In this document: one piece after another, positions 387 through 1,586 of the stretch
Layout: the number at the start of each line of letters is the position of its first letter
Position numbering within the stretch: the first letter of the stretch is position 1
Origin: Azospirillum fermentarium
GTDB lineage: Bacteria > Pseudomonadota > Alphaproteobacteria > Azospirillales > Azospirillaceae
DNA: 64,000 bases
Assembly (NCBI RefSeq): GCF_025961205.1
Contig: NZ_JAOQNH010000001.1
Coordinates: 3,000,001 to 3,064,000, forward strand
Reading direction: 5' to 3'
Program-made: the position numbers and the translations under genes
The notes under the pieces: generated by a model
Told to the model about the DNA's origin: nothing
Databases searched by the model: none
Seen by the model: only the letters and a program-made list of their open reading frames with translations

Positions 387-1139
387 CTATGACGGATTTA
401 GGTAGCAGATTCCGCCGCGCGCTTCGGGCGCGAAATTCGCGTCCCTGCGTTTCGCACACCGTTTCGCCGGCGACGATGGCACCGCCGCAACAGCCACCGT
501 CACCGCCCGCCCGGCCAGATGCGCCCCGTCGCCGGCCACCACCACCGCGCTGCCCCGCGCCACCGCCTGCGCCAGCAGCCGTTCCACCCCCCGCCGGCCC
601 GCCCCATCCAGCCCGCGTAAGGGGTTGTCGGCCAGAATCACCGGGTAGTCGATGGCAAAGGCCAGGGCGGCCGGCAATTTCCGCCGCTCCGCCGCCGGCC
701 AATGGCCGATGGTGCGGTGAAACAGCGTCCCCGGCACCCCGAGCGCGCCCAGAACCCGCCGCGCGGTGTCCGCCGCCGGATCCCACGCCCGCCCCGCCCG
801 CAGGGCCGGACCGGCCACCGTTTCGATTCCCGTCAGGTCCGGCGGCAGGCGCCGGCCCGACTCGACGGTGCCGATGGTGATCCGCCGGATCTCCAGCAGC
901 CGCTCCGGCCGCGCCCCGGTGACCTCCACCTCCACCCCGGCGTGGAGCACCCGCACGGCACCGCATGAGGGGCGCTCATCGCCGGCCAGGATGCGCAGCG
1001 CCGCCGACACCGCCCCCGCCGGCCCGGCCAGGGCCACGCACTCGCCGCCGTTCACCGCCAGCGACAGACCGGAAAAGCCGTTTTCCGGCACATCCCACGG
1101 CGCGCGGCCCACATCCAGCCCCGTCAGCCAACAGACCAT
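387..1139 (-). CDS. Degenerate PhnL-like ABC ATPase (probable pseudo-ATPase)
   Basis: About 250 aa, colinear with PhnL, the ABC-type subunit of the C-P lyase system. The match is clearest at GGECVALAGPAG, LEIRRITIGTVESGRRLPPDL and the segment ending in DYPVILADNPLRGLD. Every nucleotide-handling motif is altered: Walker A is GPAGAVSAA instead of GxSGxGKST, the signature SGGE has become PAAE, the Walker B glutamate is Asn (LADNP), and the H-loop histidine position reads GDGAH. ATP hydrolysis is therefore unlikely. The frame is open and coherent, so it is not an obvious pseudogene. An upstream in-frame start exists at 1208, but 1139 has GGGAGG just before it. No other phn gene lies within the window. 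Confidence 0.6.
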   Translation of the reverse strand: MVCWLTGLDVGRAPWDVPENGFSGLSLAVNGGECVALAGPAGAVSAALRILAGDERPSCGAVRVLHAGVEVEVTGARPERLLEIRRITIGTVESGRRLPPDLTGIETVAGPALRAGRAWDPAADTARRVLGALGVPGTLFHRTIGHWPAAERRKLPAALAFAIDYPVILADNPLRGLDGAGRRGVERLLAQAVARGSAVVVAGDGAHLAGRAVTVAVAAVPSSPAKRCAKRRDANFAPEARGGICYLNPS

Positions 1140-1337
1140 GGCCGCTCCCTCCCGTCCCCCCGTCTTTGCCGCGGGGGATATGATTTTCCCACCAGTGTGC
1201 CCGAGCACGCGGCGGAACGGAATCGACCAAAAGTCAGGGCCGGAACGGGGGCTGAATTAAGGAATCGCCGCCAAAGCCGTGCTATCGTTGCGTTTCTTCC
1301 CCGAAAGGGGCGCTGCCGGGGGCACAGGAGAATGGCG

Positions 1338-1586
1338 ATGGGACGGGTGGCCGCGCTGGCCGCGGCGGTGATGCTGACGGGATGCTCCGGCCAGCCCAGC
1401 TATCGGGAGTGGAAAGCCACGGAGGAGACCCCCATGGCCGCCTATGACGAATGCGGCCTGGAGGTGGACGCGACCATGCGCCTGCGCGGCTATCCCCTGC
1501 GCCCGCTGCCGGAAACGCCGCAGGCGGGGTATCGGAAGGAGATCTTCGCGCAGTGCATGCGCAAGAAGGGGTACAAGGCCGACTGA
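1338..1586 (+). CDS. Small lipoprotein of unknown function
   Basis: 82 aa. The start MGRVAALAAAVMLTGCSGQP has a lipobox (LTGC), so Cys17 should be lipidated after signal peptidase II cleavage, giving a mature peptide of about 66 residues anchored in a membrane. The mature part contains two further Cys (YDECGLE and FAQCMRKKGY), which could form a disulfide. AGGAG at 1326-1330 places the start at 1338; an ATG at 1332 is too close to it. The divergent neighbour is the PhnL-like gene. No family recognised. Confidence 0.65.
   Translation: MGRVAALAAAVMLTGCSGQPSYREWKATEETPMAAYDECGLEVDATMRLRGYPLRPLPETPQAGYRKEIFAQCMRKKGYKAD

Follow-up and report, generated by a model that had tools for sequence, protein, structure and literature searches.

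The gene considered here lies at the start of the window, a term that means the whole 64,000-nucleotide stretch of Azospirillum fermentarium DNA that was analyzed (host genome G000). It occupies the space between a gene for a peptidoglycan-binding protein, which runs off the window, and a divergent gene for a small lipoprotein-like product (Table 1). These two neighbors stand back to back in all 45 genomes of the genus that were compared. The gap between them measures about 209-351 bp in 42 of the 45 and about 973-1056 bp in the other three: A. fermentarium, A. soli, and G049. Each long gap holds an insert, a dead phnL gene in A. fermentarium and A. soli and an orphan phnF gene in G049. Two ABC ATPases remodel the C-P lyase complex, and PhnL is the second of them; PhnF is a GntR-type regulator of the phosphonate (C-P lyase) cluster.

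Upstream of the peptidoglycan-binding gene, the gap also carries a conserved element, about 45 bp long (GTGTTACCAGATTGCGGCGGATTTCCGGGCGCGATTTTTG in many genomes), possibly a promoter or a regulator site. It is present at no fewer than 39 of the 45 genus loci, a count taken from printed contexts; the pattern search puts the figure at 43 of 45, though four displayed hits lie elsewhere. The element is found at about 400-450 in the window, at about 464-520 in locus L056, and at about 655-711 in locus L171. The A. fermentarium copy gives no pattern match at up to three mismatches and was recognized by eye. In A. soli and G049, the inserts start 23-28 bp beyond the element.

Outside the genus, the lipoprotein occurs in 10 of the 37 other genomes of the family, and 10 stretches from these non-genus genomes showed no peptidoglycan-binding gene next to it. 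The pair therefore looks like a feature of the genus. In the window, the lipoprotein gene adjoins an amidohydrolase gene (1632-2804, Pfam Amidohydro_1), presumably dihydroorotase-like. In A. soli, G049, L032, L047, L052, L055, and L060, a different conserved gene, for a PTRFAIQKARGKGW-type protein, stands beside the lipoprotein gene.

Table 1. Features of the locus. Positions are those of the window, except in the last row.
Feature	Position	Strand	Basis
Start of neighboring PG_binding_1-domain gene, continuing beyond the window; 315 aa in L157	3..356	-	
Degenerate PhnL-like ABC ATPase gene, 250 aa	390..1139 (stop codon 387-389)	-	open frame, NCBIfam match, alignment, A. soli syntenic ortholog
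C-terminal tail of the frame, outside the PhnL homology, about 28 residues	390..473	-	base composition, pLDDT
Diverged copy of the conserved intergenic element, upstream of the peptidoglycan-binding gene	400..450		recognized by eye
PhnL-homologous part, residues 1 to about 222 (MAFFT alignment)	474..1139	-	coding composition
H-loop remnant VAGDGA, residues 201-206, His lost	522..539	-	alignment
Walker B remnant VILADN, residues 167-172, with Asp retained and Asn for the catalytic Glu	624..641	-	alignment
Signature remnant PAAE, residues 148-151, SGG lost	687..698	-	alignment
Q-loop remnant ESGRR, residues 93-97, Gln lost	849..863	-	alignment
Walker A remnant GPAGAVSAA, residues 39-47, Lys absent, one-residue deletion	999..1025	-	alignment
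Ribosome-site-like stretch GGGAGGGAG upstream of the ATG	1145..1153	-	read directly
Divergent small lipoprotein-like gene, in 45/45 genus genomes	1338..1586	+	
Orphan PhnF gene of G049, numbered within L171 (G049:C1:772500-775900)	740-1510	+	

The reading frame on the minus strand is open from its ATG at 1139 to its stop at 387-389, and a ribosome-site-like stretch stands before it; the original prediction had spoken of an open frame with a good ribosome site. The best NCBIfam family for the 250-residue product is PhnL (TIGR02324; 92.9 bits, E 2e-26), whose model covers residues 22-200. The curated cut-off of that family, 256.3, is reached neither by this protein nor by its A. soli counterpart (156.9 bits). 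The Pfam ABC_tran model (PF00005) gives a score of 29.3, which passes the gathering score of 25. The best match among PDB sequences is E. coli PhnL (1.8e-25), and a predicted model of the protein has E. coli PhnL as its best structural match as well (7z15_K, TM 0.80/0.89). The gene descends from PhnL, its nearest relative in sequence and in fold (TIGR02324, PDB sequence, and PDB structure).

The original prediction called the protein colinear with PhnL and gave a span that takes in the C-terminal tail. Colinearity extends to about residue 222; the last 28 residues or so are not PhnL. Strong coding bias marks the first 215 codons (GC at the three codon positions 0.81/0.58/0.89). Codons 216-250 have the base composition of non-coding DNA (0.63/0.66/0.66), and the whole frame, tail included, has a third-position GC of 0.86. 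The tail overlaps the conserved intergenic element. Here, the frame has run on past its old C-terminal end into that element, which is a sign of weak constraint, as are the very fast evolution of this copy and the deletion in its hairpin region (both described below).

A set of 44 intact PhnL proteins served as the standard against which the motifs of this protein were read. These were chosen by similarity to one PhnL, at 170 bits or more: 85 candidate loci gave 51 matches, from which six below 170 bits and one duplicate were dropped. A set selected in this way leans, of course, to intact proteins. Within it, the Walker A Lys, the Q-loop Gln, the signature SGG, the catalytic Glu, and the H-loop His are each present in 44 of 44 proteins; the window protein has none of the five. 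Its aligned Walker A reads GPAGA-VSA, and its signature SGG has become PAA. The original prediction had named four losses (Walker A GKS/T, a signature reduced to PAAE, a Walker B Glu turned to Asn, and the H-loop His), each of which is confirmed against the 44 intact proteins. The replacement of the Q-loop Gln by Ser is a fifth, beyond these four. The Walker B Asp and the Leu-Asp of the D-loop are retained, both here and in the A. soli copy. The N-terminal hairpin region of the window protein has also suffered a five-residue deletion.

The losses may be set against the rest of the conserved core. At the 69 positions that are near-invariant in PhnL (at least 42 of 44), the window copy keeps 33 residues, the A. 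soli copy keeps 41, and both keep 27. Lost in both copies are 8 of 12 catalytic positions versus 14 of the 57 other near-invariant ones (Fisher p 0.013, with the 12 positions chosen after the table was seen). On these alignments, the motif losses appear to favor catalytic sites over other near-invariant positions.

AlphaFold predicts a complete nucleotide-binding domain (NBD) fold for the window protein (mean pLDDT 86.4, pTM 0.83), with low confidence in the tail (pLDDT below 50 for residues 232-250). Its input, however, held 23 sequences, of which 21 were ordinary PhnL, and would tend to return a PhnL fold. A basic, nucleic-acid-binding character was considered for the protein and rejected: the net charge over residues 1-220 is +3, compared with +2 for the A. 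soli copy and a mean of +2.3 for the 44 intact proteins.

One further column of the alignment, tentatively matched to Arg82 of E. coli PhnL, holds Glu in the window protein, Gly in the A. soli copy, and Arg in 37 of the 44 intact proteins. PMC9947105 calls this PhnK-contacting Arg fully conserved; since the column has Arg in just 37 of 44, the mapping is doubtful and carries little weight. The same source states that PhnL docks on PhnK, that C-P lyase function in E. coli requires the ATPase activity of PhnL, and that changing the Glu of PhnL to Gln is alone enough to abolish growth on phosphonate. The search of the A. fermentarium genome for C-P lyase genes covered PhnF, PhnJ, PhnI, and PhnL. 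At the thresholds used, an intact PhnL was absent, and the other three gave no match. With PhnJ and PhnI not found, the window protein cannot do the known job of PhnL.

A search for homologs with the same losses, which the original prediction had proposed as a check, finds one. Among the 45 genus genomes, and among the 82 of the order that include them, a single other gene scores as an ortholog. It belongs to Azospirillum soli CC-LY788 (G001; L002:1444-2148) and stands in the same place and orientation as the window gene. The two proteins are 44% identical over 185 residues. The A. soli protein is without the same five motifs; wherever a catalytic site has been lost in both copies, the two carry different replacement residues. 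A protein tree joins the dead copies (96/97, bootstrap not settled) on branches of 6.64 and 1.15, the first of these being the end branch, in changes per site, of the very fast-evolving window copy. Because both sit on long branches, this grouping is weak by itself, and synteny is the stronger argument for their orthology. Recent decay in the A. fermentarium genome alone is rejected by the loss of the same five motifs in A. soli, and a recent horizontal copy between the two genomes is unlikely at 44% identity.

No third dead copy emerged, in that no further gene of the 45 genus and 82 order genomes scores like an ortholog; a copy that had diverged to the level of an ordinary ABC ATPase would not stand out in such a search. 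The next 11 matches below A. soli all belong to the set of 44 intact PhnL. A scan of GTDB with two short patterns gave 73 loci and, among the stronger of them, no other candidate. Among the 25 of 823 matching plasmid records listed, the best is 46.8% identical to the A. soli copy.

The original prediction had also named what would count against it: homologs that keep intact motifs in near relatives, as expected from recent decay. Four of the 45 genus genomes, one of them A. soli, do have an intact PhnL, but all four genes lie on contigs other than that of this locus and are not orthologs of the window gene. In A. soli and G006, the intact gene stands with PhnJ and PhnI. The nine intact genes of relatives whose neighbors were read (L003, L004, L006, L072-L074, and L076-L078) adjoin a PhnK-like second ABC gene, and were likewise rejected as orthologs. 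The dead A. soli copy is nearer to the PhnL of Chelativorans (46.5%) than to the separate intact PhnL of A. soli itself (38.5%). As an aside, the intact PhnL of A. soli (L188) is about 87% identical to that of G006 (L189) or G022 (L191), and an RpoB tree places G022 outside the clade that holds A. soli and G006. Such identity across RpoB clades suggests horizontal spread of phn clusters within the genus.

If the gene were drifting freely, its codons should say so. In the pairwise comparison with A. soli, omega = 1 is rejected (2dlnL 88.1); because dS is saturated, the value of omega itself is unreadable, and the rejection is what counts. The dN against A. soli is 0.47 for the window gene, 0.42 for the peptidoglycan-binding gene, 0.23 for the lipoprotein gene, and 0.05 for RpoB. 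On a 10-gene tree, setting omega = 1 on both dead tips lowers lnL from -4947.1 to -4997.7 (about 50.7 units worse). Set on a single tip, it costs 17.5 units for A. fermentarium but only 2.5 for A. soli, so that the A. soli lineage alone says little about constraint. Free branch-specific omegas hit their bounds and were not used as values. Neutral simulations, 300 per setting, left 5-33% of outcomes without a stop, depending on settings, with mean third-position GC of 0.77-0.83. A third-position GC of 0.88 was reached in 0, 0, 0, and 2 runs of the four settings, never together with a stop-free frame.

These tests span the whole time since A. fermentarium and A. soli split, during part of which the ancestral gene may still have been active. 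Over that span, codon comparisons reject free drift of the window gene, and the gene is probably still constrained. The dN/dS analysis that had been called for went against omega = 1, in a comparison of two members with saturated dS. The phrase "conserved pseudo-ATPase" survives in part: the motifs are lost, an ortholog exists in A. soli, and omega = 1 is rejected, but the gene is kept at this locus in only 2 of 45 genomes. The suggestion that the protein binds something other than ATP, or regulates, is not supported.

The third long gap bears on how the gene came to be here. The insert in G049 is PhnF (258.5 bits against a cut-off of 156.8) and is the only PhnF of that genome, in which PhnL, PhnJ, and PhnI gave no match. 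PhnF is present in 13 of 82 family genomes. It is divergent from phnL in all seven genomes that have both on one contig (G001, G006, G058, G061, G068, G071, and G073); in four others (G022, G072, G094, and G096) the two are on different contigs. The orphan phnF alone is weak proof of a former cluster, because PhnF without a PhnL-level match also occurs in G095, at another place. At this site, however, phnL and phnF point in opposite directions (across genomes), as an ancestral cluster would predict. No intact phn cluster stands here in any of the 45 genus genomes, and a search beside the window gene for remnants of phnK gave no significant match (best E 0.07, in G049). A scan for PhnF operators by consensus gave nothing useful at this site and one 1-mismatch match upstream of phnF in G061 (L192).

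The RpoB tree came from a quick search with SH-aLRT support only, and holds 43 genus genomes and two outgroups (G052 and G060 gave no match). It places A. fermentarium and G049 on early branches and A. soli at the base of a 17-member clade; A. fermentarium and A. soli are not sisters. Counted on this tree, about five losses are required if the gene is ancestral at the site. The simplest history to be inferred is the insertion of a phn cluster in an ancestor and its piecemeal loss, two lineages retaining phnL and a third phnF. The window gene is then most likely the last remaining piece of a vanished phn cluster.

The explanation preferred here, and judged somewhat more probable than its negation, is that the gene descends from phnL, is catalytically dead, and remains from a lost C-P lyase cluster, its product being, if it works, a non-catalytic binding part. 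A cluster with phnL through phnG on one strand and phnF divergent would once have stood at this site, and would have been lost piecemeal, leaving one survivor or none. The surviving phnL is without its five ATP motifs in both species but keeps an open frame, a codon-position bias, and part of the conserved core. Its product, presumably still made, would adopt a nucleotide-binding fold unable to bind or hydrolyze ATP in the normal way; any role it has would be a passive one, through binding another protein. Only their position makes the adjacent envelope genes candidate partners. More tentative is the proposal that the protein is a soluble pseudo-ATPase, already dead in the common ancestor of A. 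fermentarium and A. soli, which was exapted after loss of the machine and is now linked to the adjacent envelope genes in a scaffolding or regulatory role.

Another view would hold that phnL, useless after the cluster was lost, is a decaying pseudogene whose frame is open since the genome is GC-rich and stops are rare. The site is, after all, without phnL in 43 of 45 genus genomes, the branch is very long, the C-terminus has run on, and 5-33% of neutral outcomes are stop-free. Against these stand the third-position GC of the PhnL part (0.89, above the neutral means), the rejection of omega = 1, a dN close to that of the neighboring peptidoglycan-binding gene, and the keeping of the gene in two non-sister lineages; a pseudogene is judged unlikely. 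A less easily dismissed alternative, if still a doubtful one, has a normal PhnL in the ancestor at this site and parallel decay in A. fermentarium and A. soli. This is compatible with origin as a cluster relic and differs on the timing of the motif losses. Replacements that differ between the species at every catalytic site lost in both are what it would expect, as are two long branches. It has more trouble with derived residues that the copies have in common at conserved sites, such as K12R (Lys in 44 of 44) and I202A (Ile in 39 of 44), and with a pairwise alignment that is gapless in the H-loop, where deletion of the His may be shared.

Perhaps no cluster was ever here, and phnL inserted by itself, the phnF of G049 being there by coincidence or through another insertion into a hot spot. 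The absence of an intact cluster from the site in all 45 genomes fits such a history, as do the orphan PhnF of G095 and the nearness of the A. soli copy to Chelativorans PhnL. The presence of two genes from one pathway, oriented as a cluster predicts and with the same element alongside, makes it improbable, however, as does the occurrence of PhnF in so few genomes of the family. Least credible of all is a working ATPase with non-canonical motifs. Both species do retain the Walker B Asp and the Leu-Asp of the D-loop, but five of five nucleotide-handling motifs are missing, and in E. coli the Glu-to-Gln change in PhnL (PMC9947105) by itself stops growth on phosphonate.

The window gene encodes a motif-less PhnL and, to judge by its sequence, a putative pseudoenzyme derived from a known ATPase. 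Among the titles and abstract openings searched, a source mostly outside subscription journals, none concerned a dead PhnL, a PhnL pseudogene, or a C-P lyase pseudo-ATPase. A PhnL that survives without ATPase motifs or the partner genes searched for would be a natural case in which a machine was lost and a dead part retained. The footprint at this one site (a dead phnL, an orphan phnF, or nothing), in a genus of plant-associated soil bacteria, would trace how a metabolic cluster dissolves and which of its pieces persist.

Among known systems, the nearest is PhnL itself (TIGR02324; E. coli 7z15 and 7z16), the best match of the protein by family, PDB sequence, and structure, with which it is colinear to about residue 222. 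It differs from PhnL in having none of the five motifs, in falling below the family cut-off, and in belonging to a genome without matches to PhnF, PhnJ, or PhnI. The orphan PhnF of G049 is likewise the one phn gene remaining at this intergenic site; unlike the window gene, it encodes a regulator, not an ATPase, and scores as a normal member of its family. Degenerate nucleotide sites are familiar in ABC dimers such as CFTR and TAP, where one of two sites is lost inside a working transporter. The window protein resembles these in having an NBD fold whose catalytic residues are lost. In contrast to them, it is a whole soluble domain without the motifs, and neither of the genes that flank it is permease-like.
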